Below are positions 27,064 to 53,101 of a DNA stretch of 64,000 nt, in pieces. The notes beneath the pieces are model-generated. The model was not told where the DNA came from. It did no database searches and saw nothing but the letters and a program-made list of their open reading frames with translations. The translations under genes and the position numbers were made by a program. Position 1 is the stretch's first letter. Each line of letters begins with the position of its first letter. The stretch comes from Algoriphagus pacificus (lineage in GTDB: Bacteria > Bacteroidota > Bacteroidia > Cytophagales > Cyclobacteriaceae): assembly GCF_017254845.1 (NCBI RefSeq), contig NZ_JAFKCU010000002.1:372001-436000 (forward strand), in the 5' to 3' direction.

Positions 27064-28203
27064 ATGACTTGGACCGAGGACCCTATCTATGTAAGCGGAA
27101 TGCTCTGCTTCGCAGTCTTATTTTCAGTTTGGCTGGCAACTTTTAAAACAGGCAGAACCATTGGTTCACCGATTTTGGTAATCTTGGTTTGTGCCTTGAT
27201 TTCAAACATTGGAATCATTCCAACTGCCACCGCAGGACATCCGATTTACAATGCTGTTTTTATGTATTTGGCACCTATGGGTATTTTTATTGCCTTGCTA
27301 GATGTGGATTTGAAGAGTATCAAAAATGCTGGGATCCCGATTTTGGTAATGTTTGGAATAGGCGCTTTAGGTACCATTATCGGAGTTTTGGTTGCATGGT
27401 TTATTGTAAATCCTGCCGTTGAAATCGGTCCCTTGGCAAATGCGATAGCCGGGATGTATACTGGCACCTATATCGGAGGCAGTATAAATTTTAATGCCGT
27501 GGCACTTTCTTACCAGGTAAATGAGAATGCAGATTTATTTGCTGCTACAACTGTAGTGGATAATCTGATTGGTACCCCTTGGATCATCATCACTTTATTG
27601 TTGCCAAAGTACCTTCAAAAATTAATGCCTCGAAAAAAGTTATTGCCTCCGAAGGATCAAATAGGAAAAATCAAAAATGAAGAGTCTATTTCCATCGCAA
27701 CATTAGCGGCGATTTTTGGAATGGCATTTTTAGCTATGTCTTTTTCTAAGATGTTAAGCTCATACGTTCCACAGATCCCTGAAATAATTACGCTGACAAC
27801 CCTTGCATTGATTTTTGCACAAATTCCTTTTATCCAAAAAGTGAAAGGAACCCAAACCATCGGTTTTTTCCTCATTCTTATTTTCCTTGGCACCATTGGG
27901 ACTTTATGTGATTTCAAGACTCTTTCTGGTATTGGAGATTTAGCTGGTACTTTAATATTGTTTGTAAGCATATTAATATTAATCCACGGGATAGTGATCT
28001 ACGGCCTCGGAGGTTTGTTAAAAATCGATTGGGATGTAGTTACTGTAGCTTCCCAAGCAAATGTAGGGGGAAACACAACTGCTTTGGCAGCGGCAGAAAG
28101 CTTGAATCGACCTGATTTATTGATTCCAGGAGTATTAGTAGGAAGCCTTGGAAATGCCTTGGGAACCTATGCTGGATTTTTTATAGCTGGAATCCTAGGG
28201 TGA
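27064..28203 (+). CDS. DUF819 family integral membrane protein
   Basis: A 379-residue membrane protein with about ten to twelve hydrophobic segments. It fits the DUF819 (YjcL-like) family: an early FAVLFSVWLATFKTGRTIGSPIL helix, PAVEIGPLANAIAGMYTGTYIGGSINFNAVA in the first half, and the related repeat VTVASQANVGGNTTALAAAESL near the end, suggesting an internally repeated transporter-like fold. Function is not established; the two conserved Asn/Gly-rich re-entrant loops resemble those of secondary transporters. It stands alone, 88 bp after the aminotransferase. Confidence 0.84.
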   Translation: MTWTEDPIYVSGMLCFAVLFSVWLATFKTGRTIGSPILVILVCALISNIGIIPTATAGHPIYNAVFMYLAPMGIFIALLDVDLKSIKNAGIPILVMFGIGALGTIIGVLVAWFIVNPAVEIGPLANAIAGMYTGTYIGGSINFNAVALSYQVNENADLFAATTVVDNLIGTPWIIITLLLPKYLQKLMPRKKLLPPKDQIGKIKNEESISIATLAAIFGMAFLAMSFSKMLSSYVPQIPEIITLTTLALIFAQIPFIQKVKGTQTIGFFLILIFLGTIGTLCDFKTLSGIGDLAGTLILFVSILILIHGIVIYGLGGLLKIDWDVVTVASQANVGGNTTALAAAESLNRPDLLIPGVLVGSLGNALGTYAGFFIAGILG

Positions 28204-28312: not shown

Positions 28313-28918
28313 ATGAGGGATAGTCTTAATCAAAATTTTTTCAAAAGTTCAAATGACTCAAGGAAATCTTCCTCTGATGATCTTGCACTTTGGAGAAGTA
28401 TTAAGAATGGAAATGATCTTGCATTTTCAAGTCTCTATAATCGATATGCTCAGCAACTTTTTAATTATGGAATGCATCTTTGCCACAATCGAGAACTCTG
28501 CAAAGATTCCATTCAGGAATTATTTACTTATCTCTGGAATCGAAAGGAATCACTTTCGGAAATTGACTCGGTAAAATATTATTTGTTGAAATCCTTCAGG
28601 AACCTTCTTATAAAAAGTATAGAAAAGGACAGAAAATTTTTTGTTGATTTGGATGATAAGCATGAGCAGTTTCAGCCAGAAACTTTTGTAGAGGAGGAGA
28701 TTATTCTAAAGGAGATAAATTTTTTGAAAAGAGAAAAAATGAATTTTGCCCTTTCCAATATTCCTAAAAGACAGCGGGAGATAATTGTTCTCAGGTATTT
28801 TAATGAAATGAATTACCAAGAGATTTCTAGTTTGATGGGGATCTCAGTTCCTTCAGCTCACAACTTACTTTCCAAAAGTCTTCAATCCATGCTAGCCATA
28901 ATTGGAAAATCAAAATGA
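28313..28918 (+). CDS. ECF sigma factor of the SusC/SusD locus
   Basis: Extracytoplasmic-function sigma-70 factor of 201 residues. Region 2 is visible as ALWRSIKNGNDLAFSSLYNRY and DSIQELFTYLWNRKE, and region 4 as LSNIPKRQREIIVLRYFNEMNYQEISSLMGIS with a helix-turn-helix. It is followed after 132 bp by a FecR-type anti-sigma factor and then a SusC with an STN domain. This is the standard trans-envelope signalling trio of Bacteroidota: substrate bound by SusC is sensed by FecR, which frees the sigma factor to transcribe the locus. Control of 30102-41236 by this sigma factor is inferred, not shown. Confidence 0.94.
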   Translation: MRDSLNQNFFKSSNDSRKSSSDDLALWRSIKNGNDLAFSSLYNRYAQQLFNYGMHLCHNRELCKDSIQELFTYLWNRKESLSEIDSVKYYLLKSFRNLLIKSIEKDRKFFVDLDDKHEQFQPETFVEEEIILKEINFLKREKMNFALSNIPKRQREIIVLRYFNEMNYQEISSLMGISVPSAHNLLSKSLQSMLAIIGKSK

Positions 28919-29050
28919 TCATTTTCCCGTTTGGGACTTCGTTTAAATGCCTCTAAAGGGCAATTTTTTTTTTGTCTTAAAAAAAAATGAAAAAAGTGAT
29001 GAGAAATGGATGACCTGATACTCTTATAGCTGTATTTAAAGTCCGTTGCA

Positions 29051-30058
29051 TTGAATTATCCTAAATCAAATTATTCTGAATTCTCAGTTGAGGATTTTAT
29101 CATGGATCCATTTTTCAAAGAATGGGTTATCCAATCGTCTCCTGAGGCTGATGAATTTTGGATTCATTGGAAAGAAGAAAATCCCTCCAAAGTAGAAATC
29201 TTAGAGGACGCCAAAAAGGCTGTTTTAGCATTGGAGAAATCCCAATTCACTTTAAAAGAAGAGGAATTCAAGGAAATCTGGAAAGGAATAAACAGCTCAA
29301 AAACTCAAAAGCCTGCAATAGTTGAAAAGACGAAAAGGAGGTTGGCAATCTGGCCTTATGCTTCAGCAGCAGCATTTTTGGTTCTTTTGTTGGCCTTTTT
29401 CTGGATTAGGATGCCAAAAGAAATTGAATACCTGACCGGCTATGGAGAGACTCAAAAAATCATTTTACCTGATAGTTCAATTGTTATCCTAAATGCCAGT
29501 TCCAAACTTACTTTTATTGATAACTGGGAATCAGAGGCAGCTCGTGAAATTTGGATCGAAGGTGAGGCATTTTTTGAAGTCAAGCATATGCAAGATCATC
29601 AACCCTTTAAAGTCTGGAGTTCAAATGGGATTGGAATCGAGGTTTTAGGGACAGAATTTAATGTTTACAACCGCTCGAATGAAACTGAAGTTGTCCTCAA
29701 CTCAGGCGTGGTTTCTCTAAGTTTTCCAGTGAAAGAAAAGGAGGGAAAAATCCTGATGAAGCCTGGAGAAATGGTTCAGTTCAAAGACAGCAAATTTCAG
29801 AAGAAGGAAGTTAATGCATCGCTCTATACATCTTGGAAAGATGATGTTTTAAACCTGGATGAAACAAGCCTGAAGGATATTCTAAATGTTGCAAAAACCA
29901 ATTACGGAGTGGATGTGGAAATAGAAAATGAAGCTGTATTAGAACTTACTGCATCCGGTTCCATGCCGCTTTCAGATGCTGAAAATTTCATGAAACAAGT
30001 TTCCATGATTTTCAATATCGAAATAACCAAAGAAGAAAATAAGTACCTGATTAAATAA
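29051..30058 (+). CDS. FecR-type anti-sigma factor
   Basis: Inner-membrane anti-sigma regulator of 335 residues. The N-terminal cytoplasmic part (YSEFSVEDFIMDPFFKEWV) binds the sigma factor; one transmembrane helix lies at about 98-119 (AIWPYASAAAFLVLLLAFFWIRM). The periplasmic FecR domain (about 125-230) has the GETQKIILPDSSIVILNASS signature, and the C-terminal DUF4974/STN-like domain (about 255-335) has LNLDETSLKDILNVAKTNYGVDV. The start is TTG at 29051: an in-frame TAG lies 24 bases upstream with no ATG after it, and the first ATG at 29102 would cut into the conserved VEDF motif. Partner of the sigma gene at 28313 and the SusC at 30102. Confidence 0.93.
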   Translation: MNYPKSNYSEFSVEDFIMDPFFKEWVIQSSPEADEFWIHWKEENPSKVEILEDAKKAVLALEKSQFTLKEEEFKEIWKGINSSKTQKPAIVEKTKRRLAIWPYASAAAFLVLLLAFFWIRMPKEIEYLTGYGETQKIILPDSSIVILNASSKLTFIDNWESEAAREIWIEGEAFFEVKHMQDHQPFKVWSSNGIGIEVLGTEFNVYNRSNETEVVLNSGVVSLSFPVKEKEGKILMKPGEMVQFKDSKFQKKEVNASLYTSWKDDVLNLDETSLKDILNVAKTNYGVDVEIENEAVLELTASGSMPLSDAENFMKQVSMIFNIEITKEENKYLIK

Positions 30059-30101
30059 CCCAAAATGATTTATTCTCAAAATAACCTAAACCCCAGTAAC
30101 C

Positions 30102-33100
30102 ATGAAAAAGATTCTACAATTCATGTGTTTCAGTTGCTGGATTTCGTGGAATGCGTTTTCGCAAAACACGGAATTATTGGCTTCTGGGCGCATCAGCTCA
30201 GCCTCGGGACATTCCGAAACTGAGTACCAAGACCTTAGAGAAGGTCTCAGTCAGTTAGAAGAAAAATTCAAAGTGTCGATTGCCTACAAAGATGAATTGG
30301 TGCAATCAAAGCGATTTAAGAAACAGAATGCTTCATTTACTTCAGTTGAGCAAGGGCTGAAGGTTTTATTGAAAGAATCTGGATTAGCCTATGAAAAGGC
30401 AAGTGAAAATTTTTACATCATTTCAGAGAAAAAAGCATCAACTCCAATTAACAAAACAAAGCTGAATCAAATCAGGAATGCTGAATCGATTACAGAGGCA
30501 CCAGTAGCTTCCCAAAATTCGGGTTTCAGCAGTACCCAATTAGTCAAAGCAAGACAAGTCCAAATTGGAGGTAGAGTAACCGATGAAAATGGAGCAGGAT
30601 TCCCGGGAGTAAATATTCTTCTCAAAGGTACTTCTGTAGGAACTGTTACCGATGCTCAAGGGAATTATACGATCAATGTAGAAAATGAAAACTCTGTTCT
30701 TGTTTTTTCATTTGTCGGGTACAATAACCAAGAAATTTTGGTTGGAAACCGAACAGTGATTGATGTTCAGTTGGAAGTAGATGAAAGTAACCTAGAAGAG
30801 GTAGTTGTGACAGCTTTGGGTATTGAGAAATCTGCGAAAAGCTTGGGCTATGCCACCTCAACTGTCCATTCGGATGAATTATCCATTAACAGAACTCCTA
30901 ATGTGATGAACGCACTTCAGGGTAAAGTTGCTGGGGTAAGCATTTCCGCTTTAGGTTCTGGACCAGGTGGTACTTCAAAAATCAGAATCAGAGGTCAATC
31001 CTCAATTTCTGGTCAAAACAACCCACTTATCGTCGTAAACGGGGTTCCAATTGATAATACAAACTTCGGTTCGAATCCTGGAAACAACGCATCTGATAGT
31101 AGTATCGGTGTAAGAGGTGGTGGTAATACCTCTGATGGTGGCGACGGTTTGTCAAGTATCAACCCGGATGATGTGGAAACTATGACCATCCTAAAAGGTG
31201 CCGCAGCTGCAGCTTTGTATGGTTCTAGAGCGAAAGACGGGGTAATCATGATTACTACTAAAAGTAAAAATGATTCGAAAGGAATCGGAGTTACTTACAA
31301 TTTGAACTACACCAATGAGGCTCCTCTGGACTTTACTGATTATCAATATGAATATGGACAGGGAGAACAAGGTGTGAGACCTACCACTCCTAACCCAACA
31401 TCTGGACAATGGTCTTTTGGTGAGAAGTTTCAGCCTGGAATGACTCAAGTTCTATTTGATGGAGTTTCTGTTCCTTATGAGCCTGTAAGAGACCGCATCA
31501 AGACTTTCTTTAGAAATGGGCAAAATGTGACTAATTCGGTGACACTTGCCACTTCCAGTGATAAAGGTGGAATGAGCTTGTCATTTTCAGATTTGACAAG
31601 TAAAGGGATTGTACCAAACAACACCTTTAATAGAAAAACAATCAACCTTGGATTTGCCTATAATTTAAGTCCAAAGTTCAGTTTCAGAGGTAATTTCAAC
31701 TATTCCAATGAGGTTAATAAAAACCCGCCAAACATTGGTCAGCAAGACAATACCATTCCTGTGGCTTTATACAATATGGCCAATTCTATGCCTTTAGATG
31801 TCCTCAGAGACAATCGATATGATGCCAATGGAAACGAAGCTGTTTATTCAAGATTTAGAAACAGAACCAATCCTTATTTCACACTTTCTGATCAATTCCA
31901 AAATATCAGGAGAGATAGGATTTTTGGAAACGTAGCAGTGAAATACCAGCTGACTGATTGGCTATTTGTCCAAGGTAGAGTCGGTCAGGATTACTGGAGT
32001 AGAGATCAGGATTATAACAACTTCCCAACAGGCCAAGCATCAAGAGCTCCTGCGCCAGCTGGTTTCGTAAACGGTGTCTACACGCAGGAGCAAAGAAGAT
32101 TCAGAGAAATCAACACTGACTTCTTGATCAATGCAAACAAGAAATTCGGTGACTTGGGTGTGAATGCGAACTTCGGTGGAAACCACATGCAGAGAAGGTC
32201 TGATCTCAATAGTGTTCAAGTAACAGACTTTGTAGTTAGAGGACTTTATACCGTACAAAATGGTCGAGCAAAAGATCCGATTTATGATTTGAATGAGCGG
32301 GCTGTAAACTCATTGTATGGATCGGCGGAATTTTCATATCTGGATAAGTTTTTCTTGACAGGTACAGTTAGAAACGACTGGTTCTCCACGCTTTCAAAAG
32401 CAAATAGAAGCATTTTATATCCATCTGTTTCAGCCAGTTGGGTATTCCACGAAAATCTAAATACAACGGGTTGGTTGAATTTTGGAAAGGTAAGAGCAGC
32501 CTATGCTGAAGTGGGTAGTGACGCCGACGTGGGAGCTTATTCAAATGTGCTTTTCTATGGAATAAACAATAATCTGTTTGGTGGTCAGCCTGTTGGTGGA
32601 CCGAATGGTACTAACCTTCCAAACCCGGATTTGAGACCGATGAGAATTGGCGAGGCTGAAATTGGTTTTGAATTGAGCATGTTCCAAAGCCGAGTAAGTT
32701 TGGACATGGCGCTTTACAGAAAAATCACAACAGATCAGATCGTTAGTGCTCAGATCTCTGATGCTTCTGGCTTTGTCAATACTTCCATTAACAGTGGCAA
32801 AAGTGAAAACAAAGGAGTGGAAATGTTATTGACGCTGGTTCCTGTAGAGACCAAGGATTTTACTTGGGAATCTTCAATGAATGCAGCCTATAATGTCACC
32901 GAAGTTTTGAGCTTGTTGACTGATACACCAGGTGAAAGAATCACTGTAGGAACCCACGTTTTCAACGGTGAATTGAGACAAATCGTAGGAATGGAAATGG
33001 GACAGGTTGCTGGTTTTGGTTATAGAAGAGATGCACAAGGAAGAAAGATTTTTGGAGCAAATGGGATTCCTCTCAGAACTCCTGACCTAATCAATTATGG

Positions 33101-33632
33101 AAGTGCTTTGCCTAATTGGGTGGGTGGTTTTACCAACTCGTTCAATTACAAAGGGGTGATGCTTTCATTCTTGATAGACTTTAAGCTAGGGAACATCATG
33201 CTTTCCGGTACTAACTTCAATGCCGTCCGTCATGGGTTGCACAAAATGACATTGGAAGGAAGAGAAGGTGGGGTAGTAGGAGATGGAGTCAATGAAGCAG
33301 GAGAAATCAATACTGCAGTTGCTCCAGTTCAATCCTATTGGGAAGTGGTGCGTTCCCAAGCTTTAGTCGAGCCGGTAATTTTTGATGGTGGATATTGGAA
33401 GCTGCGGCAAATCACGCTGGGCTATGATTTCACGAAGCACTTACCTGCAAATCAACCTTTCAAGTCTGTCAAGCTCAATTTTGTAGCGAACAATGTACTC
33501 ATGCTTAAGAAATGGGTGGATAATATAGATCCGGAGTCTTTTGGATATTCCTCAGATAACTTGGTGGGAATGGAATCCACTGGATTACCATCTACTAGAG
33601 GAATAGGATTTAATCTAAATGTTAAATTTTAA
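30102..33632 (+). CDS. SusC/RagA TonB-dependent transporter with STN domain
   Basis: Outer-membrane receptor of 1176 residues. Order: signal peptide (1-20, ending AFSQ), STN/secretin-like signalling domain (about 45-108, LSQLEEKFKVSIAYKDELV), carboxypeptidase-regulatory-like domain (about 152-225), TonB box EEVVVTALG (232-240), plug domain (KVAGVSISALGSGPGGTSKIRIRG, then NPLIVVNGVPIDN), and a 22-strand-type barrel to the C-terminus. The STN domain is the part that contacts FecR, so this is a signalling transporter that would induce its own locus. SusD follows 11 bp later. The ligand is unknown; the downstream lyase and aldolase homologues suggest an acid-sugar-containing compound in preference to a neutral glycan, because no glycoside hydrolase sits in the locus. 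Confidence 0.96.
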   Translation: MKKILQFMCFSCWISWNAFSQNTELLASGRISSASGHSETEYQDLREGLSQLEEKFKVSIAYKDELVQSKRFKKQNASFTSVEQGLKVLLKESGLAYEKASENFYIISEKKASTPINKTKLNQIRNAESITEAPVASQNSGFSSTQLVKARQVQIGGRVTDENGAGFPGVNILLKGTSVGTVTDAQGNYTINVENENSVLVFSFVGYNNQEILVGNRTVIDVQLEVDESNLEEVVVTALGIEKSAKSLGYATSTVHSDELSINRTPNVMNALQGKVAGVSISALGSGPGGTSKIRIRGQSSISGQNNPLIVVNGVPIDNTNFGSNPGNNASDSSIGVRGGGNTSDGGDGLSSINPDDVETMTILKGAAAAALYGSRAKDGVIMITTKSKNDSKGIGVTYNLNYTNEAPLDFTDYQYEYGQGEQGVRPTTPNPTSGQWSFGEKFQPGMTQVLFDGVSVPYEPVRDRIKTFFRNGQNVTNSVTLATSSDKGGMSLSFSDLTSKGIVPNNTFNRKTINLGFAYNLSPKFSFRGNFNYSNEVNKNPPNIGQQDNTIPVALYNMANSMPLDVLRDNRYDANGNEAVYSRFRNRTNPYFTLSDQFQNIRRDRIFGNVAVKYQLTDWLFVQGRVGQDYWSRDQDYNNFPTGQASRAPAPAGFVNGVYTQEQRRFREINTDFLINANKKFGDLGVNANFGGNHMQRRSDLNSVQVTDFVVRGLYTVQNGRAKDPIYDLNERAVNSLYGSAEFSYLDKFFLTGTVRNDWFSTLSKANRSILYPSVSASWVFHENLNTTGWLNFGKVRAAYAEVGSDADVGAYSNVLFYGINNNLFGGQPVGGPNGTNLPNPDLRPMRIGEAEIGFELSMFQSRVSLDMALYRKITTDQIVSAQISDASGFVNTSINSGKSENKGVEMLLTLVPVETKDFTWESSMNAAYNVTEVLSLLTDTPGERITVGTHVFNGELRQIVGMEMGQVAGFGYRRDAQGRKIFGANGIPLRTPDLINYGSALPNWVGGFTNSFNYKGVMLSFLIDFKLGNIMLSGTNFNAVRHGLHKMTLEGREGGVVGDGVNEAGEINTAVAPVQSYWEVVRSQALVEPVIFDGGYWKLRQITLGYDFTKHLPANQPFKSVKLNFVANNVLMLKKWVDNIDPESFGYSSDNLVGMESTGLPSTRGIGFNLNVKF

Positions 33633-33643
33633 GCTCTAAAGAC

Positions 33644-35161
33644 ATGAAAAAGATAATTTTAAATATAGCAATTTTCGCAGCGGTCGCATTCGCAACTTCC
33701 TGTGACAGCAATTTCGATGAGCTCAATACCAATAAAGTTTCTGCGACTTCAATTGATCCCGCATTCCAATTAAATCAGGCAATAGTGGGTTGTGCTTATC
33801 CCAATGGTAGTTTGATTTATGACATCGGTATTGTTCAGCAGATTATATCTCCGAACTCCGGGGTTTTGACTGGTGCCAATTACAATCAGGATAACAGAAA
33901 CGCAACTCAGGAACTTTGGCAAGGTTACTACCGAAATGTGATAAAAAACACTCGGGATGTAATTAACAGAATACAAGACCAACCTGAGCGTGCCAACCTG
34001 TTGCATATGACCAGAATCATTCAGGCTTTCGCCTTTATGGTTTTGACTGATGATTATGGTAGCATTCCTTATTTCGAAGGAGGTCAGGGATATTCTCAAC
34101 AGATATATCTTCCAGTCTATGATTCTCAGCAAGCCATTTATGAAGATCTAATAAAAGAGCTTTCTGAGGCTACAGCAGCTTTGAATACAGCAGGAAGAGT
34201 AGAGTCGGCTGATATTTTATATGCCGGAGACATCAATAAATGGAAAAGCTTCGGTTATTCTCTCTTGCTTAGAGCAGGGATGAGACTGAGTGAAGTAGAT
34301 GCTGCTAAAGCTCAGCAGGTTGTTCAGACAGCTTTCCAGGGCGGAGTTATCACTGCCAATAGTCAAAATGCTGTTATTCGACATGACCCGAACTATACAA
34401 ATACGATTGGTAACCTTTTGAATTCCACAGAAGCTTCCAATTTCTATTTGACTGCTCCTTTTGTGAATTACTTGAGAAGTAAAAATGACCCTCGACTTTC
34501 TGCCATTGCGATTACCTATGTAGGTGCTAAATCCGGTCCGGAGCAAACACCTGCCAATGGTACTTATGATGCTTCTGTGCATGTAGGTATGCCGATGGGT
34601 AATGACAATGCTGGAGCTGTAAAAGCTGCATCCGATGAAGGTTTGGCGAGCTTTTATGAATTTGCGCAAGCTGATAGAAGAAGACTGGCGAAAAATACTG
34701 CGCCAAACTTCTTGGTAACAGCTTCTCAGACCAATTTGCTTTTAGCAGAAGCCAGACAAAGAGGTTGGATTACTTCAGGAACCGTTGAATCCTACTACAA
34801 TGCAGGAATTAGAGCTCATATGGACCAATTGGGAACAGTTGATCCAGGATCAGCCATTGCTCCCACTGCAGTGGATGCATACCTTGCTGAAAATCCATTC
34901 GACGCTTCTATGGCTTTGGAGCAAATCAATACTCAATATTGGGTTTCTTCCTTTTTGAATGGTCCTGAGGCATTTGCGAATTTCAGAAGATCTGGTTTTC
35001 CAGTGCTTAATACAAATCCATTCCCCGGAAAAGAAGTGGATTTCATCAACCGTTTGACCTATCCTAATTCCGAAATTTCTGTAAATTCAGAAAATGTTAG
35101 TGCTGCGATCTCTTCACAAGGACCTGACAACCTAGCAACCAAAGTTTGGTGGGACAAATAG
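33644..35161 (+). CDS. SusD/RagB-like outer-membrane lipoprotein
   Basis: Surface lid lipoprotein of 505 residues that works with the preceding SusC. The signal peptide ends in a lipobox with the Cys of FATSCDSNFDELNTNK. The family's TPR-like helical scaffold is visible (AFMVLTDDYGSIPYFEGGQ, AIYEDLIKELSEATAALN, KWKSFGYSLLLRAGMRLSEVD, then LLLAEARQRGWI). The many Asn and aromatic residues in between fit a ligand-binding face. It lies 11 bp after SusC, and a strong hairpin follows, so SusC and SusD would form one abundant transcript with lower read-through into the enzymes. The closest groups are SusD/RagB-like outer-membrane lipoproteins. Confidence 0.94.
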   Translation: MKKIILNIAIFAAVAFATSCDSNFDELNTNKVSATSIDPAFQLNQAIVGCAYPNGSLIYDIGIVQQIISPNSGVLTGANYNQDNRNATQELWQGYYRNVIKNTRDVINRIQDQPERANLLHMTRIIQAFAFMVLTDDYGSIPYFEGGQGYSQQIYLPVYDSQQAIYEDLIKELSEATAALNTAGRVESADILYAGDINKWKSFGYSLLLRAGMRLSEVDAAKAQQVVQTAFQGGVITANSQNAVIRHDPNYTNTIGNLLNSTEASNFYLTAPFVNYLRSKNDPRLSAIAITYVGAKSGPEQTPANGTYDASVHVGMPMGNDNAGAVKAASDEGLASFYEFAQADRRRLAKNTAPNFLVTASQTNLLLAEARQRGWITSGTVESYYNAGIRAHMDQLGTVDPGSAIAPTAVDAYLAENPFDASMALEQINTQYWVSSFLNGPEAFANFRRSGFPVLNTNPFPGKEVDFINRLTYPNSEISVNSENVSAAISSQGPDNLATKVWWDK

Positions 35162-35168
35162 TTTTCTG

Positions 35169-35202
35169 CAGGGCTTGGTAATCACCAGGCCCTGTTTTAT
35201 TT
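35169..35202 (+). terminator. Hairpin with T-tract after susD
   Basis: An 11-bp stem CAGGGCTTGGT (35169-35179) / ACCAGGCCCTG (35184-35194) with one T-G wobble, loop AATC, followed by TTTTATTT. It begins 7 bp after the susD stop codon. It looks like an intrinsic terminator or attenuator separating uptake genes from enzyme genes. Confidence 0.85.
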
Positions 35203-35217
35203 AAATCTAGATTAATC

Positions 35218-36156
35218 ATGCTTAAAAAAATTACAATCACCCTTTTCTTGTCATTATGCATGCTGGCTGGCGTAAATGCCCAGCAGATTTCTAAAGAAGA
35301 AATGCTCTTTTTGACACAAAAGTGGACTGGAGAGAGGTATGAGGATGGCAGGCCAAAAGTTTCTGATGATATCCTCAGAAGAATGAAAGAAGTAACCCAC
35401 GATGAGGCATGGGCGGTGATGAAAAATGAAGGCTATCGCTATCAATATGCTGATGGTTGGGGGCTCACAATCAATCCTGATAGTGTTTTAGTAGGAAGGG
35501 CTTTGACTGCCACGTTTATGCCAGGTAGACCAGATATCCATGATGCCATAGATGAGAGAGGTAAAAAAGAAGGAAAGCGCGGTCAAAATTCTTGGCCAGT
35601 GGACTTGCTTCAACCAGGAGATGTCTATGTAGTAGATCAATTTGGGATTCATAATGGTGGACCGACCATTGGAGATAATGTCGGAAATGCAATCTATGCC
35701 AAATCCGGCAACGGGATTGTTTATGATGGAGCGATTCGTGATATCGTTGGACTAAAAGAAATAGGCTCTTTTACATCCTATGTTTCCAGTTATCATCCCT
35801 CTCACCATAATCAACCAGGCGATTTGAATACCATGTTGATTGGAATCAACAAACCCACTAGAATTCATCAAGTGACTGTTATGGCTGGAGATGTTGTCCT
35901 GGGAAGAGATGGAGGAGTATCCTTTATTCCAGCTCATTTGGCTGAGAAAGTAGTGGTGACTTCAGAGGTAGTCCGCCTGAGAGATATGTTTGGTCATGAG
36001 CGACTAAGAGAAGGAAAATACACTGCAGGGCAAATTGACACCCGCTGGTCAGATGAGATAGAAAAAGACTTTTCCCAATGGCTCAATGATCACATCGACG
36101 AACTACCTATTGCCAGGGAACAAATACAGGAAATTTTAAAGAAAAGAACCTGGTAA
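35218..36156 (+). CDS. Exported RraA-like / HMG aldolase family protein, copy 1
   Basis: A 312-residue protein with a Sec signal peptide (1-21, ending VNAQ). The central part (about 90-250) is the RraA/HMG-CHA aldolase fold. The residues expected for the metal-dependent pyruvate aldolases of this family are present: D153 in IGDNVGNA and R174-D175 in YDGAIRD, separated by 21 residues as in the Pseudomonas putida enzyme (D102, R123, D124). E. coli RraA, the RNase E inhibitor, is about 160 residues and cytoplasmic; this one has extra N- and C-terminal arms (WTGERYEDGRPKVSD and ERLREGKYTAGQID) and is exported, so an RNase role is unlikely. A pyruvate-releasing aldolase or related lyase is the best inference. 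Followed after 25 bp by an exported enolase-superfamily gene. Substrate not known. Confidence 0.88.
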   Translation: MLKKITITLFLSLCMLAGVNAQQISKEEMLFLTQKWTGERYEDGRPKVSDDILRRMKEVTHDEAWAVMKNEGYRYQYADGWGLTINPDSVLVGRALTATFMPGRPDIHDAIDERGKKEGKRGQNSWPVDLLQPGDVYVVDQFGIHNGGPTIGDNVGNAIYAKSGNGIVYDGAIRDIVGLKEIGSFTSYVSSYHPSHHNQPGDLNTMLIGINKPTRIHQVTVMAGDVVLGRDGGVSFIPAHLAEKVVVTSEVVRLRDMFGHERLREGKYTAGQIDTRWSDEIEKDFSQWLNDHIDELPIAREQIQEILKKRTW

Positions 36157-36181
36157 GCTTTAAGTAAACTCAATTTCAATC

Positions 36182-37459
36182 ATGAATAACAAAAAATCAC
36201 GAAGATCCTTTTTACAAAAAGGAGCCGCTCTTGGATTAACCGGCGCTGGTCTATTGACGAATTTTGGCACTGGTCTACAAGCAGCAGTTCAAAAACAAAA
36301 CAATTATTCTAACCCCTCAGACCTAAAAATCACTGATGTGAAATGCGGATTTGTCCGCGGAGCTGTTTACGTAAAAGTGTATACCAACCAAGATGTGTGG
36401 GGATGTGGAGAAGCAGTGGATGCAATCCATGGCTCATATTACTTGGTCAAAAGACTAGGAAATCAGCTTAAGGGTCAAAATCCCCTAAATCCAAATCGAC
36501 TTGCTGAGCAGTTGAGAAAAGGATCATTTTTCGGAGGTGCTCAATCCGGAGTTTTTGTGGCAGTTTTGACAGCCATTGAAACTGCCCTTTGGGATATTAC
36601 TGGTAAGGTTTTTAACGTTCCTGTTTATCAGCTATTAGGCGGAAAATTCCGGGATAAGATCCGGGTTTATTGCGATACAGCTCTTTACACTTCTACCAAT
36701 CCAAAACCTTCAGATTATGCCGCCGCAGCAAGAGATGCTGTGGACCGAGGTTACAATGCTGTAAAATTTGATGTGGATGATGGTAGAGATCCAAACAAAT
36801 ATGACCGTTTCAATTGGACTGCAAGTCCTGCAGAAATAGATCGGATGTACAATGCCATCGCTGCGGTAAGGGAAGAAGTAGGGCCAAACATAGATGTCTG
36901 CGTGGATATGCATGGTCGCTATGATGCAGTCACAGGGATGAAAATGGCAAAAATGTATGAGCCTTTGAATTTGATGTGGTTAGAAGAACCTGTTCCTGCC
37001 GATAATCCGGAAGTGTATAAGAAAATCACACAAGAAACGAGTACACCTATTTGCTCAGGAGAAAATATCTATCTGGCTTACGGATTCACCAAGTTACTTT
37101 CTGATGGTGCTTTAGATATAATCATGCCTGACCTTCAAAAAGCTGGAGGATTAGGTGAAGCGCAACGTATCGCCAATCTGGCAAACCTCTATTATGTGCC
37201 ATTCTCTCCGCATATGGTTGCCTCATTTTTAGGAGCAATGGCTAGTTGTCATGTCTGTGCTTCAGTTCCCAATTTCCAAATCATGGAATGGCAGATCTAC
37301 ATGGACAAGGATGACCTTTGGAAAGATATTGTGACATACGATGGGCCGAGGACTGAAAATAGCTTTATCACACTTTCAGAAAAACCGGGAATCGGAGTTG
37401 AAATCAACGAAGAAGGCATGAAAAAATATGCCGTTCCAGGGATACCTTTCTTTGAATAA
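36182..37459 (+). CDS. Exported enolase-superfamily acid-sugar dehydratase homologue, copy 1
   Basis: Mandelate racemase-subgroup enzyme of 425 residues with a Tat-like signal (KKSRRSFLQKGAALGLTGAGLL), hence probably periplasmic. The catalytic set is complete: K195-x-D197 in NAVKFDVDD, metal ligands D242, E268 and E294, the D317-H344 base dyad, and H244 two residues after D242 (VDMHGR). The spacings 26, 26, 23 and 27 equal those of E. coli D-galactonate dehydratase (D183, E209, E235, D258, H285; acid H185) as I recall them. This predicts dehydration of an acid sugar to a 2-keto-3-deoxy acid. Together with the RraA-like gene just upstream it would make a dehydratase-aldolase pair. The sugar stereochemistry cannot be told from sequence. 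Confidence 0.92.
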   Translation: MNNKKSRRSFLQKGAALGLTGAGLLTNFGTGLQAAVQKQNNYSNPSDLKITDVKCGFVRGAVYVKVYTNQDVWGCGEAVDAIHGSYYLVKRLGNQLKGQNPLNPNRLAEQLRKGSFFGGAQSGVFVAVLTAIETALWDITGKVFNVPVYQLLGGKFRDKIRVYCDTALYTSTNPKPSDYAAAARDAVDRGYNAVKFDVDDGRDPNKYDRFNWTASPAEIDRMYNAIAAVREEVGPNIDVCVDMHGRYDAVTGMKMAKMYEPLNLMWLEEPVPADNPEVYKKITQETSTPICSGENIYLAYGFTKLLSDGALDIIMPDLQKAGGLGEAQRIANLANLYYVPFSPHMVASFLGAMASCHVCASVPNFQIMEWQIYMDKDDLWKDIVTYDGPRTENSFITLSEKPGIGVEINEEGMKKYAVPGIPFFE

Positions 37460-37466
37460 TTAATGC

Positions 37467-37492
37467 ACCCTAACCTTTGGTTAGGGTATTTT
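37467..37492 (+). terminator. Hairpin after first dehydratase gene
   Basis: A perfect 9-bp stem ACCCTAACC (37467-37475) / GGTTAGGGT (37479-37487), loop TTT, then ATTTT. It begins 8 bp after the stop codon and stands between the two aldolase-dehydratase pairs. The T-tract is short, so it may be partial or stabilise the mRNA 3' end. Confidence 0.7.
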
Positions 37493-37514
37493 AAACGATA
37501 AACCCTTCATACCA

Positions 37515-38477
37515 ATGAACCCTAAATTTTTACAAAAATCATCTTTTTGTGCTGTTGCCCTGACAGGATTGCTTTTGTTTTCTTCCGGCAAAATCGCAGC
37601 ACAAAATGTTGGAGCCTCTCCCGAATATATCAAAGCGCTGACCTCTCAATGGACAGGCGAACGATTTCCTGATGGTAGGCCAAAAGTCTCCGATTCCATT
37701 TTGGAACGGTTGAAAAACATCTCCATAGAAGAAGCCTGGGGTGTTTTACGAAATAAAGGCTTTCAGAATCAATACGAAGGAGACTGGCAAATAATGCTTC
37801 CGGACGAGGCGATGACCGGCCGTGTTGTAACAGCTCAATACATGCCTTTAAGACCAGATCTGGAAAAACAAGTTAAAGATCAAGGCGTGGAAAAAGAGGG
37901 GAGATCTCCTAAAGGTGGGACCAATTCATGGCCGATTGATATCCTTACCAATGGTGATGTTTATGTAGCAGATGGCTATGGGAAAATTGCCGATGGAACC
38001 TTGATCGGCGATAATCTCGGGAATGCAATTTTTGCAAAATCCCAGCGAGGAGTAGTTTTCAATGGATCCGTTCGAGATCAGGAAGGCCTTTCAGAAATCG
38101 AGGGATTTAATGCCTGGATGAAAGGACAAGATCCATCCTACATCCAACAGATGATGTTAACCTCTATCAATACTCCAATAAGAATTGGAAGAGCAACCGT
38201 GCTGCCAGGAGATATTGTTTTGGCCAAAAAATACGGAGTGATATTTATTCCAGCCTATTTGGTAGAGGAACTGGTTTTGACTTCTGAAGTCACTGGTTTG
38301 AGAGATGAATTTGGGCATCAAAGGCTCCGTGAGGGAAAATACCTGGCTGGACAGATTGATAGCCAATGGACTGAAGAGATCAAAAAAGACTTTCTGGATT
38401 GGTTGAATAATTATCCTGGGAAGCTTCCTATGACAAAGGAAGAGCTGGATAATTACTTGAAAGAAAGAAATTATTGA
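37515..38477 (+). CDS. Exported RraA-like / HMG aldolase family protein, copy 2
   Basis: A 320-residue paralogue of the gene at 35218, with a signal peptide (1-30, ending IAAQ). The shared architecture includes TGERFPDGRPKVSD, TGRVVTAQYMPLRPD and the C-terminal RLREGKYLAGQIDSQW. The aldolase positions are conserved: D166 in IGDNLGNA and R187-D188 in NGSVRD, again 21 residues apart. Sequence between the two copies diverges in the 110-145 and 190-210 loops, where this copy has an insertion (EGRSPKGGTNSW) and another active-site surround, suggesting a different but related substrate. Starts 55 bp after the first dehydratase gene, following the hairpin. Function is inferred from family only. Confidence 0.87.
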   Translation: MNPKFLQKSSFCAVALTGLLLFSSGKIAAQNVGASPEYIKALTSQWTGERFPDGRPKVSDSILERLKNISIEEAWGVLRNKGFQNQYEGDWQIMLPDEAMTGRVVTAQYMPLRPDLEKQVKDQGVEKEGRSPKGGTNSWPIDILTNGDVYVADGYGKIADGTLIGDNLGNAIFAKSQRGVVFNGSVRDQEGLSEIEGFNAWMKGQDPSYIQQMMLTSINTPIRIGRATVLPGDIVLAKKYGVIFIPAYLVEELVLTSEVTGLRDEFGHQRLREGKYLAGQIDSQWTEEIKKDFLDWLNNYPGKLPMTKEELDNYLKERNY

Positions 38478-38480
38478 GTT

Positions 38481-38515
38481 TACAAAAGGCCACGACTTTT
38501 GTAAATCCTTTTTGT
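38481..38515 (+). terminator. Hairpin after second RraA-like gene
   Basis: A perfect 9-bp stem TTACAAAAG (38481-38489) / CTTTTGTAA (38497-38505), loop of seven bases, then ATCCTTTTT. It begins 3 bp after the stop codon. A second small stem TGTCGG/CCGACA lies at 38514-38535. Confidence 0.72.
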
Positions 38516-38570
38516 CGGTGTGGATTTTCCGACATTCTAAAATTTTTACAAAACAATAACCCAAGAAACT

Positions 38571-40055
38571 ATGAAAAGTACTCTACAAAACCTGATTGAA
38601 AAAAATAAAATCCGCGAACAGCAGTATGCTGCCCAGCGGCAGGCCGAAATTGATAATCCTTTGACCAAGGATAATAGAAGAGATTTTTTGAAGAAAACTG
38701 CCCTAGGCGGCTTGAGTTTGACAGCCTTGATGGGTCTTAGTATTGAAGATACCATGGCAGAAACTACTAAAAACGTACGTCGGGCTTCAGCACCATCAGA
38801 CTTAAAAATCACAGATTTACGCTATGCCCATACAGCTGTGATGGGAGGGACAGCCATTCTTCGAATCGATACGAACCAAGGGATTTATGGACTGGGTGAG
38901 GTTAGAGATGGGGCAGATCCTAAGTACGCTTTGATGCTCAAAAGCCGAATTCTAGGTGAGAATCCCTGTAATGTGGAGAAGATCTTTAAAATCATTAAGC
39001 AGTTTGGCGGACAATCCCGTCAGGCTGGCGGTGTCTGTGGAGTAGAGATGGCATTATGGGATCTTTGCGGTAAAGCATACAACGTTCCCGCTTGGCAATT
39101 ACTTGGAGGTAGGTATCGGGATTCAATTCGATTGTATGCAGATACTCCAGAGGCAAGTTCGCCTGAGGAACAGATGAAATTGATCAAATATAGAACGGAA
39201 GAGCAAGGCTATACCTGGCTAAAAATGGATGTTTCTATTGGGGAGATTATGGATATTCCAGGTTGTATCGTTAATCCGGAGATTTTTAAAATGGGTAAAA
39301 GCCAATGGCAAGGAGGTTATATGTCTTACGCCAATACGGCTCATCCATTCACAGGAGTTCAAATCACTGAAAAAGGATTGGATGAACTAGCCAAAATAGT
39401 GGATCTTGTGAGAGGCATGGTAGGATATGAGATTCCTCTTTCGACAGATCACTATGGACATTTTGACCTGAATAACTGTATTAGATTGGGGCAGGCTCTG
39501 GATAAATATAGACTAGCATGGCTCGAAGATATGGTTCCATGGCAGATGTGGGAGCAGCATAAAACTATTACTAATGCACTCAATACTCCGACTACTACTG
39601 GAGAGGATATTTATCTTCTTCAATATTTCAAAGACTTGATCGACAATCATGCGGTGGATATTGTGCATCCTGATTTGGCTTCTTCTGGAGGGCTTTTGGA
39701 AACAAAGAAAATAGCAGATTATGCGGAAGAAAAAGGAATTTCCATGGCAATGCATCAGGCAGGAACTCCAGTATCTTTCATGGCAAATGTCCATTGTGCT
39801 GCCGCAACTCAGAATTTCTTGGCTTTGGAACACCACTCAGTAGATGTTCCGTGGTGGGAAGATATGGTGACCATGACAGGGGGAGGAAAAATGATCGATA
39901 AAGGATATGCACCAGTCCCTTTGGATGCGCCTGGTCTTGGAATTGAATTAAACGAGGAGGTGGTCAAGGCACACTTACATCCTTCCGATCAATCATATTT
40001 TGCTCCAACAGATATGTGGAATGATAAGCGTTCGCATGACAGAACTTACAGTTAA
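38571..40055 (+). CDS. Exported enolase-superfamily dehydratase homologue, copy 2
   Basis: A 494-residue mandelate racemase-subgroup protein with a late Tat-type signal (NRRDFLKKTALGGLSLTALMG, residues 35-55) after a charged N-terminal extension. Metal and base residues are present with the same spacing as copy 1: D293, E319, E345, D368 and H395, and K218-x-D220. The acid position differs: the residue two after D293 is Y295 (STDHYGH), where copy 1 and galactonate dehydratase have His. There is an insertion of about 26 residues between the KxD strand and D293 (221-268), rich in aromatics. The two enzymes therefore probably act on different substrates or with different stereochemistry. The C-terminal tail is long and charged. 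Confidence 0.9.
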   Translation: MKSTLQNLIEKNKIREQQYAAQRQAEIDNPLTKDNRRDFLKKTALGGLSLTALMGLSIEDTMAETTKNVRRASAPSDLKITDLRYAHTAVMGGTAILRIDTNQGIYGLGEVRDGADPKYALMLKSRILGENPCNVEKIFKIIKQFGGQSRQAGGVCGVEMALWDLCGKAYNVPAWQLLGGRYRDSIRLYADTPEASSPEEQMKLIKYRTEEQGYTWLKMDVSIGEIMDIPGCIVNPEIFKMGKSQWQGGYMSYANTAHPFTGVQITEKGLDELAKIVDLVRGMVGYEIPLSTDHYGHFDLNNCIRLGQALDKYRLAWLEDMVPWQMWEQHKTITNALNTPTTTGEDIYLLQYFKDLIDNHAVDIVHPDLASSGGLLETKKIADYAEEKGISMAMHQAGTPVSFMANVHCAAATQNFLALEHHSVDVPWWEDMVTMTGGGKMIDKGYAPVPLDAPGLGIELNEEVVKAHLHPSDQSYFAPTDMWNDKRSHDRTYS

Positions 40056-40077
40056 ACACCTATTTTACCTATAGTAG

Positions 40078-40118
40078 AACCCGAAAACTTGCTTTAAAGC
40101 TTGTTTTCGGGTTAATTT
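40078..40118 (+). terminator. Hairpin with T-tract after second dehydratase gene
   Basis: A long stem AACCCGAAAAC...GCTTT / AAAGC...GTTTTCGGGTT (40078-40113) with one TT/TT internal loop, followed by AATTT. It begins 22 bp after the stop codon, before the transporter gene. Confidence 0.75.
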
Positions 40119-40147
40119 CAAAAGAATTCACCCAAAATACCATCATT

Positions 40148-41236
40148 TTGAATCCAAAAATCACCAAAGCCTTATCGATTTTCTCAGTTGTCCTATTCCT
40201 CGCAGCGATTGCAATGAGTGTATTCTCAGACATTTCAAACGCAGGATTTTTATGGATTGGTTTCTTCTTTATTTGTGCGATTTCATTTTTGGGAAATCCC
40301 AAATTGAAAGGGTACGCCTATTCCATGATGATATTTGGCTCAGTGGCAATCGCATTGTATTTCCCTCAATATTTTGTCGAATACAAAGGCTATAAATTCA
40401 GTGCGCTGATTGTTCCCTTGATCCAGATCATTATGTTTGGAATGGGTACATCCATGAGTGTGAAGGATTTTTTGGGAGTAGTTAAAATGCCTAAAGGCGT
40501 GTTGATTGGGGTTTTTTGCCAATTTTCTATCATGCCTTTTATTGGATTTACTTTGGCAAAATTGAGCGGGTTTCCTCCTGAAATTGCTGCAGGTATGATT
40601 TTGATTGGATGCTCTCCTAGTGGGATGGCTTCAAATGTGATGAGTTATTTGGCAAAGGCTAACCTTGCCCTTTCTATTACAGTAACTTCTATTACCACTT
40701 TATTGGCACCTTTAGTTACTCCGTTTTTGATGGGCTGGCTTGCAGGAGAATTCGTCGCAATTGATGTGGTCGAGATGATGTTTAGCATCGTGAAAATGGT
40801 CATCATACCAATTGGTGCTGGATTATTATTTAATTATTTCCTTCAAGGGAAATCCAAGTGGTTGGACGATTTGATGCCTATTATCTCTATGGCGGCCATC
40901 GCACTGATCCTCGTAATCATCGTCGCTGCCGGAAGAGATAGCTTGTTGGACATTGGACCTTTACTGATCGTTTTGGTGATATTTCATAATCTAGCAGGTT
41001 ATGCTTTGGGGTATTGGGCAAGTCGATTATTCAAGCTGAGTGAAAAAGATTGCAGAACAATCGCCATAGAAGTAGGTATGCAAAACGGAGGTCTTGCTTC
41101 TGGAATAGCAAAAGAAATGGGGAAAATCGCAACAGTGGGTTTAGCACCAGCGGTTTTCGGTCCATTTATGAATGTTAGCGGATCAATTTTAGCCTCTTAT
41201 TGGCATAAAAAGCCAATTCCTGAGGAAAAAGCTTAG
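40148..41236 (+). CDS. Bile acid:sodium symporter (BASS/SBF) family transporter
   Basis: An inner-membrane carrier of 362 residues with about ten transmembrane helices. Family marks are the crossover helix region MILIGCSPSGMASNVMSYLAKANLALSITVTSITTL (about 145-182) and the later ALEVGMQNGGLA-like segment IAIEVGMQNGGLASGIAKEMG (about 306-326), which carry sodium-site residues in known members. Bacterial BASS proteins import organic acids such as pantoate, pyruvate or bile acids with Na+. The start must be TTG at 40148, since no ATG precedes the first helix. Given the exported dehydratase/aldolase pairs upstream on the same strand, import of their oxo-acid product is a reasonable inference. Its stop overlaps that of the convergent next gene by 4 bases. 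Confidence 0.9.
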   Translation: MNPKITKALSIFSVVLFLAAIAMSVFSDISNAGFLWIGFFFICAISFLGNPKLKGYAYSMMIFGSVAIALYFPQYFVEYKGYKFSALIVPLIQIIMFGMGTSMSVKDFLGVVKMPKGVLIGVFCQFSIMPFIGFTLAKLSGFPPEIAAGMILIGCSPSGMASNVMSYLAKANLALSITVTSITTLLAPLVTPFLMGWLAGEFVAIDVVEMMFSIVKMVIIPIGAGLLFNYFLQGKSKWLDDLMPIISMAAIALILVIIVAAGRDSLLDIGPLLIVLVIFHNLAGYALGYWASRLFKLSEKDCRTIAIEVGMQNGGLASGIAKEMGKIATVGLAPAVFGPFMNVSGSILASYWHKKPIPEEKA

Positions 41237-41652
41237 GGTAATTTATAAGCTTGTCGGGCCAGTAATTTCCACTGGCCTTTTTCTTTGTGCCAAACTAGCA
41301 TAACTCCGATTTCTATGGAATTGGAAACTCCGCCATCTGTAATATCAGCAGCAAGTTTATGCCTCACAATTGCAATATCCTTTTCCATTTGAATCGTTTG
41401 ATCTTTGAAAGTAATGGATGCAAAATCTGAAACTCCACTGACTAATGCCTCTATAAATTGAGATTGGTTTTCAAGTTTGCCGCTGGAATGTCCATAGCTA
41501 AGATTCTCTGAGCTAAGGGCTTTAAGGTTTGCTTCGGTAGGATCAATGAGTGCTAAGCGTAATGCTTCTACTTTTGCTTCGACTTCTCTTTCTGCCTGTG
41601 CAAAAACAAGGGTACAACATAGAAGAAAGCAGAGAGTAAAGAGGGTTTTCAT
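41233..41652 (-). CDS. Secreted SnoaL/DUF4440-like protein
   Basis: A small secreted protein of 139 residues: signal peptide MKTLFTLCFLLCCTLVFAQ followed by an NTF2-like (DUF4440) alpha+beta fold of about 120 residues with LRLALIDPTEANLKALSSENLSYGHSSG near the start and VMLVWHKEKGQWKLLARQAYKLP at the end. The family often binds small molecules, and the conserved YGHSSG site is compatible with that, but no activity is known. It converges on the BASS transporter gene, sharing four bases at the stops. Whether it belongs to the uptake locus or only lies beside it is unclear; such NTF2-like proteins recur near SusC/D loci. Confidence 0.8.
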   Translation of the reverse strand: MKTLFTLCFLLCCTLVFAQAEREVEAKVEALRLALIDPTEANLKALSSENLSYGHSSGKLENQSQFIEALVSGVSDFASITFKDQTIQMEKDIAIVRHKLAADITDGGVSNSIEIGVMLVWHKEKGQWKLLARQAYKLP

Positions 41653-51964: not shown

Positions 51965-51987
51965 AACGACAATAGCCCAAAATATCT

Positions 51988-53079: not shown

Positions 53080-53101
53080 GATTTAATAAAAACAAAAAAT
53101 A

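Follow-up and report, generated by a model that had tools for sequence, protein, structure and literature searches.

A candidate acid-sugar uptake and conversion locus of Algoriphagus pacificus with predicted exported RraA-fold and enolase-superfamily enzymes

A 64,000-nucleotide stretch of the Algoriphagus pacificus genome (contig NZ_JAFKCU010000002.1, positions 372,001 to 436,000; hereafter the window) contains a run of nine plus-strand genes (28313-41236) whose products may take up and convert a small compound of the acid-sugar type as an inducible system. Judged from the sequences, the enzymes of this system would be exported and their product, a 2-oxo acid, would be imported by a carrier of the BASS family. 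We assign this reading a probability of roughly 0.58. Computation directly shows, as described below, which genes are present, that export signals and pairing are conserved and that the catalytic sites are intact. All nine frames are open at the following coordinates, and their products belong to the families that the original prediction had named:

28313..28918, plus strand: sigma factor of the extracytoplasmic function (ECF) type (Pfam Sigma70_r2/r4; TIGR02985 90.9 bits, below its cut-off of 126.4; TIGR02937 79 bits, above its cut-off of 42.9)
29051..30058, plus strand: FecR-type anti-sigma factor (Pfam FecR 3.4e-13, FecR_C; TTG start called, internal ATG at codon 18)
30102..33632, plus strand: SusC/RagA TonB-dependent transporter (Pfam TonB barrel/Plug/CarboxypepD; NCBIfam TIGR04056 630.6 bits, above its cut-off of 368)
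33644..35161, plus strand: SusD-like outer-membrane lipoprotein (Pfam SusD-like_2 PF12771 5.6e-81)
35218..36156, plus strand: RraA-1, RraA fold with Sec-type leader and D-X20-R-D motif (Pfam PF03737 1.3e-14; AlphaFold model with a mean predicted local distance difference test score, pLDDT, of 86)
36182..37459, plus strand: MR1, enolase-superfamily dehydratase homologue of the Asp-x-His type with Tat-type leader (Pfam MR_MLE_N and MR_MLE_C, PF13378 1.9e-61)
37515..38477, plus strand: RraA-2, RraA fold with Sec-type leader and D-X20-R-D motif (Pfam PF03737 3.4e-17)
38571..40055, plus strand: MR2, enolase-superfamily protein of a subgroup that lacks the Asp-x-His histidine, with Tat-type leader (Pfam MR_MLE_N and MR_MLE_C, PF13378 6.5e-45; model pLDDT 81)
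40148..41236, plus strand: BASS/SBF family carrier, PanS-like (Pfam SBF 6.6e-41; PanS model 237.7 bits, below its cut-off of 400; TTG start called)

Both MR proteins contain a twin-arginine motif (SRRSFL at residue 6 of MR1 and, after a long n-region, NRRDFL at residue 35 of MR2) followed by a hydrophobic stretch, and the source genome encodes TatC, as expected of substrates of the twin-arginine translocation (Tat) pathway. RraA-1 and RraA-2 have hydrophobic N-termini. In MR2 the motif (38571-38680) sits 34 residues in, behind a charged, helix-predicted n-region that is common to many Bacteroidota relatives. Leaders were called from sequence motifs and hydropathy rather than with a trained predictor, and were counted without choosing a start codon. 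The relatives come from two sets: an order-level set of 194 genomes sampled from the order, in which 31 loci were compared for pairing, and 80 named loci (individual loci carry L numbers) that scored best among at least 589 confirmed relatives matching either of two peptide patterns, which is not a random sample and has its phyla assigned by hand from record titles. In the 31 order-level loci plus the window, the MR leader is present in 35/35 proteins (two truncated proteins excluded) and the RraA leader in 28/28 (one truncated protein excluded). The named Bacteroidota loci have a twin-arginine leader in MR2 in 50/50 cases and a hydrophobic leader in all 33 readable RraA proteins (39 loci have an RraA gene, six of them unreadable), while the Acidobacteriota show 11/11 for MR2 and 3/3 readable for RraA (five loci with RraA, two unreadable). 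Leaders on both MR2 and RraA also occur in one Balneolota locus, one Planctomycetota locus and the Opitutaceae loci L124 and L141; an unassigned bacterium has the MR2 leader and an unreadable RraA start. The MR2 proteins of L140, which starts nine residues before the domain, and of L144 were left out of the leader count.

The Bacillota relatives provide a counterpart, with leaders on 0/5 RraA proteins and a count of 0/9 for MR2. The MR2 of L136 was flagged and then discounted because its RR precedes the likely start; in its relatives L134 and L137 identical letters stand immediately ahead of the Met. The Bacillota RraA proteins begin approximately where the mature exported form would begin. 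In a quick MR2 tree, the Bacillota, the Chloroflexota and three Verrucomicrobiota/Lentisphaerota rows form one 13-row group with full support that holds all nine Bacillota rows, and no credible MR2 leader was found in this sister clade by motif and hydropathy. Predicted export is thus a family trait of these Bacteroidota enzymes, and the sister clade that includes the Bacillota has enzymes without leaders. The original prediction had proposed export of all four enzymes, Sec-type for the RraA proteins and RR-type for the dehydratases, and the conservation of these putative leaders in relatives supports it.

The catalytic sites of the MR proteins are consistent with an acid-sugar substrate. Both MR_MLE domains score above the Pfam cut-off in MR1 and MR2, and both proteins retain the Asp/Glu/Glu metal ligands, a K-x-D motif and a His-Asp dyad, residues whose roles we take to be those of the enolase superfamily. 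The Asp-x-His motif at the first metal ligand is present in 11/11 MR1-type proteins and, in the order-level set, in 5/5. The best solved relative of MR1 is the uncharacterised protein 2qq6 (1.3e-96), which is also nearest to the predicted fold of MR2 (pLDDT 81), followed by further members of the MR family, mannonate and gluconate dehydratases among them. Overall, of the named models and structures, the two proteins best match acid-sugar dehydratases and uncharacterised relatives of these. MR1 scores 248.9 of 311 bits and 182.5 of 550 bits against the galactonate and mannonate dehydratase equivalog models, and MR2 scores 171 and 147.2 bits, all below the cut-offs. Compared with the MR-subgroup acid-sugar dehydratases (galactonate, mannonate and gluconate; 2qjn, 3tw9), MR1 and MR2 share the fold, metal ligands and His-Asp dyad, and MR1 shares the Asp-x-His motif, whereas both differ in their Tat-type leaders and sub-equivalog scores, and the MR2 subgroup has Phe, Tyr, Leu, Trp, Val or, once, Met in place of the histidine.

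Genes near the relatives of these enzymes also point to sugar acids. KdgK and Eda genes lie in the clusters of Muricauda L071 and Blautia L135 (by hidden Markov model) and Prolixibacteraceae L073 (by similarity, 66-67%); in L071 they follow the BASS gene directly on the same strand. FGGY kinases occur in L073, L078 and L087, those compared with NCBIfam being gluconokinase-like; similarity indicates further FGGY kinases in L076 and L122. A D-galactonate-type transporter of the major facilitator superfamily (MFS) occurs in L108 and, by similarity, in L076. UxuA is found in L084 and L144, and by similarity in L128, L130, L142 and L146. In Tannerellaceae L084 (8830-11488), this UxuA-type mannonate dehydratase gene lies between SusD and MR2, a position held by RraA in several relatives. 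Furthermore, GH43 adjoins MR2 in L131, L140 has GH10 and a short-chain dehydrogenase/reductase (SDR) near MR2, a pair of SDRs comes next in L138, and a lactonase-family gene precedes in L136. The other scanned neighbours of relatives are unrelated (regulators, histidine kinases, a Na/H exchanger, an ABC exporter). In the source genome, genes for a KdgK-like kinase, Eda and a galactarate-dehydratase-like protein lie side by side.

Seven of 333 plasmid records with an RraA match were also inspected. In Rhodobacterales, RraA lies beside an annotated ketoglutarate semialdehyde dehydrogenase on a Marinovum plasmid and within a run of arabonate dehydratase, DapA and aldehyde dehydrogenase (ALDH) genes on a Paracoccaceae plasmid. 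Two Rhizobium plasmid operons with sugar transporters of the ATP-binding cassette (ABC) type have an MR-family gene directly preceding RraA, resembling the window in placing adjacent MR and RraA genes in a sugar-uptake operon; they differ from it in using ABC uptake instead of SusC/SusD, in being only 24-28% identical to the MR and RraA proteins of the window, and in that the MR protein reads Asp-Tyr-His. Two actinobacterial plasmid records with an RraA match have no annotation. Since relatives place the RraA/MR pair in sugar-acid metabolism, an exported acid-sugar pathway is favoured, and this reading of the locus is well supported. The acid-sugar chemistry first suggested for the locus therefore appears to hold, given the family scores of MR1 and MR2 and the sugar-acid genes near their relatives.

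The pairing itself recurs widely. An RraA gene lies within 6 kb of MR2 in 17/31 loci of the order-level set and, among the named loci, in 39/50 Bacteroidota, 5/11 Acidobacteriota, 5/9 Bacillota and 2/5 Verrucomicrobiota/Lentisphaerota; of the groups with a single locus, it is present in Planctomycetota, Balneolota and the unassigned bacterium (1/1 each) and absent in Chloroflexota and Armatimonadota (0/1 each). In the 50 Bacteroidota loci, SusC is found within 12 kb of MR2 in 22, BASS within 8 kb in 24, and an MR1-type protein (at least 50% identity, within 9 kb) in 11. RraA-1 and RraA-2 are the only PF03737 matches in the whole 5.28 Mb source genome and both are beside dehydratase genes, indicating that their placement is not due to chance; three more MR_MLE_C matches lie elsewhere in this genome. 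The RraA proteins are 50% identical to each other and the MR proteins only 32-37% (in two pieces), which rules out one simple recent duplication of the RraA-MR pair. In L080 (8314-21509, Adhaeribacter aquaticus), one SusC/SusD pair is followed by six tandem MR2-type genes and then by three RraA genes, an expansion that suggests several substrates or stereoisomers.

The complete order from sigma factor to BASS carrier is kept in A. aestuarii and A. winogradskyi, where MR2 is 97% and 94% identical, respectively, and is rearranged in other Bacteroidota. In L036, a locus from the family to which the window belongs, the genes from SusC to BASS are arranged as in the window except for an additional MR1-type gene, and sigma/FecR-like genes lie upstream. 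A gene order confined to this one genome had been named beforehand as grounds for rejecting the original prediction; because the order is found in other genomes, those grounds fall away. An MR2 relative at E <= 1e-60 was detected in 29/194 genomes of the order, including the source genome, in 1/10 other listed family members and in 0/5 other listed members of the genus, and its absence from these five Algoriphagus indicates that the locus is patchy within the genus.

Several observations weigh against an acid-sugar system. SusC/SusD ligands are usually larger than free sugar acids. None of MR1, MR2, RraA-1, RraA-2 and the BASS protein reaches the cut-off of an NCBIfam equivalog model, and KdgK and Eda occur together in only 2/50 Bacteroidota loci (L085 has a lone kinase match at 25%). 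No RraA gene was found near MR2 in 14/31 order-level loci, several of which are short contigs, or within 6 kb of MR2 in 11/50 Bacteroidota loci, and the RraA relative on a Priestia plasmid has no dehydratase beside it. Finally, the position of the Asp-x-His histidine holds another residue in 81/81 MR2-type proteins (Phe 43, Tyr 27, Leu 6, Trp 4, Val 1) and in 32/32 of the order-level set, where Met is seen once. MR2 consequently represents a separate subgroup, and its reaction is not to be assumed from galactonate and mannonate dehydratases. Thus, of the proposal that both MR proteins are acid-sugar dehydratases, the class assignment probably stands on family scores, intact metal sites and the neighbours in relatives, while the missing histidine counts against it for MR2.

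The same missing histidine would fit a locus that handles no sugar acid, the ligand being instead, for example, siderophore-like or an aromatic acid, and the enolase-superfamily proteins being racemases or cycloisomerases. FecR/sigma/STN systems often serve iron uptake, and an enolase-superfamily cycloisomerase is known in Zobellia carrageenan catabolism (5olc; available text of PMC5698469). However, sugar-acid or carbohydrate genes account for many of the neighbours identified in relatives, none of the chosen neighbours that were scanned was recognised as part of an iron or aromatic pathway, and sugar-acid dehydratases are the named proteins to which MR1 and MR2 are best related; we consider this explanation improbable.

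The reaction of the RraA proteins allows more than one interpretation. RraA-1 and RraA-2 both contain the D-X20-R-D motif, of which Arg-Asp is present in 66/66 RraA relatives and the full motif in 51/66; the 15 that lack the first Asp include all five Bacillota proteins, which have one extra residue. Paralogues with Ser or Ala in its place occur in L037, L049, L050, L056, L057, L083, L106 and L107, and with this replacement activity may be lost or changed. The model of RraA-1 matches 3k4i, 5x15 and 3noj and has C-terminal helices beyond residue 264. The structure 3noj is that of the 4-hydroxy-4-methyl-2-oxoglutarate/4-carboxy-4-hydroxy-2-oxoadipate (HMG/CHA) aldolase, in which Arg-123 is essential and Asp-124 binds the metal, and most of its homologues carry one of two motifs (available text of PMC5065237). 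With the same fold and motif, RraA-1 and RraA-2 could be true aldolases that release pyruvate and an aldehyde from a 2-keto-3-deoxy acid in the periplasm, with pyruvate imported by the BASS carrier, whose best-scoring named model is a ketopantoate/pantoate carrier. However, 3noj is an aromatic-pathway enzyme, whereas RraA-1 and RraA-2 have leaders and extra C-terminal helices and score only 33.8-51.3 bits against the HMG/CHA aldolase equivalog models (cut-offs 179 and 304.5). The KdgK and Eda genes in the clusters of L071, L073 and L135 would be pointless were the six-carbon acid already cleaved, and the 15 relatives without the full motif fit the aldolase role poorly. This role is judged unlikely. 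A role as the RNase E regulator RraA was rejected, as RraA-2 scores 35.5 of 136 bits against the RraA equivalog model, RraA-1 has no match to this model at 1e-3, and both carry leaders.

A different activity is known from FlDet, an RraA-family enzyme of Flavobacterium sp. UMI-01 that converts 2-keto-3-deoxyglucarate to alpha-ketoglutarate semialdehyde as a dehydratase/decarboxylase and whose gene adjoins a semialdehyde dehydrogenase gene (available text of PMC8563752). FlDet resembles RraA-1 and RraA-2 in its family and in its occurrence in Bacteroidota, and it acts on a 2-keto-3-deoxy sugar acid. By analogy, the exported RraA proteins may dehydrate a 2-keto-3-deoxy acid, with or without decarboxylation, to give alpha-ketoglutarate semialdehyde or a dideoxy-2-oxo acid, the starting substrate being an aldarate or similar compound. 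The top sequence match of both RraA proteins, RraAS2 (5x15), is 26% identical to FlDet (PMC8563752, in the text available), and the Marinovum and Paracoccaceae plasmid neighbourhoods described above agree with such a role. Against it, FlDet accepted 2-keto-3-deoxyglucarate alone among the alpha-keto acids tried, and it differs in having 237 residues and, as the purified protein starts at the initial Met, no cleaved leader (same source). Moreover, no semialdehyde dehydrogenase gene is among the genes of the locus. A degenerate DNA pattern for nine N-terminal residues of FlDet had 0 matches in 395 genomes, and no FlDet-like protein was found in the three RraA loci read (L158, L159, L167) of 22 RraA matches in nine genomes. 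A FlDet-type reaction is accordingly regarded as doubtful. The genome record of L139 (Flavobacterium sp. SUN052) measures 8.1 Mb, and the proteins on two of its RraA contigs appear unlike those of a flavobacterium; the record may be mixed. Given FlDet as a dehydratase/decarboxylase of the RraA family and the KdgK and Eda genes of the three relatives, the original assignment of RraA as a periplasmic aldolase does not follow from the conserved Arg-Asp pair.

The KdgK and Eda genes of L071, L073 and L135 suggest entry of a six-carbon 2-keto-3-deoxy acid into the cytoplasm of those relatives and, in these few cases, weigh against complete periplasmic cleavage. The exported enzymes might then stop at a six-carbon 2-keto-3-deoxyhexonate; RraA would be an isomerase or eliminase of a substituted precursor, and BASS would import an acid of the 2-keto-3-deoxygluconate (KDG) type for KdgK and Eda. 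The direct succession of BASS, KdgK and Eda in L071, the gluconokinase-like FGGY and galactonate-type MFS genes near MR2 in other relatives, and the KdgK-like and Eda genes of the source genome are in line with this. The adjacency is nevertheless rare, as counted above for the Bacteroidota, and we know of no RraA with such an activity and of no BASS carrier of KDG. This alternative is possible, though it falls on the unlikely side.

The most probable products of the exported enzymes are 2-oxo-3-deoxy acids or their fragments, which BASS would import. In the mechanism proposed for the acid-sugar system, the sigma factor, FecR and SusC would sense the ligand and SusC with SusD would import it across the outer membrane, as judged from what is known of these families. 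Next, MR1 and MR2, exported by Tat pre-folded and metal-loaded, would convert sugar acids (aldonates or aldarates) to 2-keto-3-deoxy acids in the periplasm, MR1 via the mechanism of galactonate and mannonate dehydratases and MR2 via a related one in which the acid catalyst differs. The RraA proteins, exported by Sec, would then form a metal-stabilised enolate on the 2-keto-3-deoxy acid, leading to beta-elimination or retro-aldol cleavage, and BASS would import the resulting 2-oxo acid. Finally, cytoplasmic KdgK and Eda would finish any six-carbon 2-keto-3-deoxy acid that enters. We infer each of these reactions, the substrate class and the BASS cargo. It is proposed more tentatively that many Bacteroidota, Acidobacteriota and Opitutaceae have an entire non-phosphorylative sugar-acid pathway, with dehydration and then RraA-fold enolate chemistry, outside the cytoplasm. 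The uncharacterised MR2 subgroup, with a new catalytic arrangement, would start this pathway, and a related clade including Bacillota would use the same enzyme pair intracellularly.

The intergenic gaps from the sigma factor through BASS are 11-132 bp. The start codons of FecR and BASS are uncertain because TTG was called while internal ATGs are present, and the N-terminal STN domain of SusC is weak yet recognisable (22.4 bits, under the Pfam cut-off of 28.4). The SusC/SusD pair of a polysaccharide utilisation locus is present and carbohydrate-active enzymes are absent: in agreement with the original prediction, Pfam finds no glycoside hydrolase or polysaccharide lyase among the nine genes. 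Two genes flank the run:

41233..41652, minus strand: a possible accessory gene, convergent with BASS, for a DUF4440 (SnoaL-like) protein whose N-terminus is hydrophobic (Pfam DUF4440; relatives in the clusters of other genomes)
27064..28203, plus strand: DUF819 membrane protein upstream of the sigma factor, a doubtful member (Pfam DUF819 5.6e-51)

The DUF4440 protein recurs in the clusters of L050, L067, L071, L073 and L091. The DUF819 gene was rejected as a part of the system since it is not conserved, with one weak match (L113, 23%) among 111 relative loci. Elsewhere in the window, a GntP-family (gluconate-type) permease is encoded at 61065-62396, 20 kb from the locus, and a separate plus-strand run (49421-53893) encodes a DUF7133/cytochrome c protein, a xylose-isomerase-like TIM barrel and a short-chain dehydrogenase. 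A mobile or phage origin gained no support: RraA-1 and MR2, the only two genes queried, had no PHROGs match, and all plasmid-borne relatives of RraA-1 are below 60% identity.

Bacteroidota sugar catabolism with an enolase-superfamily step is already known from the anhydrogalactonate cycloisomerase of Zobellia (available text of PMC5698469). In that carrageenan regulon (DauA-DauD), which includes a SusD-type gene, the step leads to 2-keto-3-deoxygalactonate, followed by a kinase and an aldolase; glycoside hydrolases release the sugar in the periplasm for uptake and a dehydrogenase oxidises it first (same source). In contrast, the enolase-superfamily proteins of the Algoriphagus locus are predicted to be exported, and the locus has no glycoside hydrolase or dehydrogenase. 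Enolase-superfamily expansions in SAR202 have been discussed in a paper whose main text, as available, does not contain the words 'periplasm' or 'signal peptide' (PMC6946804), and the sugar-acid enzymes mentioned for Maribacter arabinogalactan are called cytoplasmic in the available text of PMC11036162. No published description of an exported RraA/dehydratase pair with SusC/SusD was recognised among the papers listed by searches of open-licence full texts, and MR2 and the exported RraA proteins are enzyme groups for which no characterised member was found.

Sugar-acid catabolism is normally described as cytoplasmic. If the enzymes act as predicted, widespread environmental bacteria would begin this catabolism in the periplasm, and SusC/SusD loci without glycoside hydrolases would be read differently. 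A function would also be provided for two as yet unassigned groups, the exported RraA proteins and the MR2 subgroup, whose active site without the usual histidine poses a directly testable question of enzymology. The split between predicted export and cytoplasmic location in the sister clades would be a natural experiment on why the pathway moves outside.

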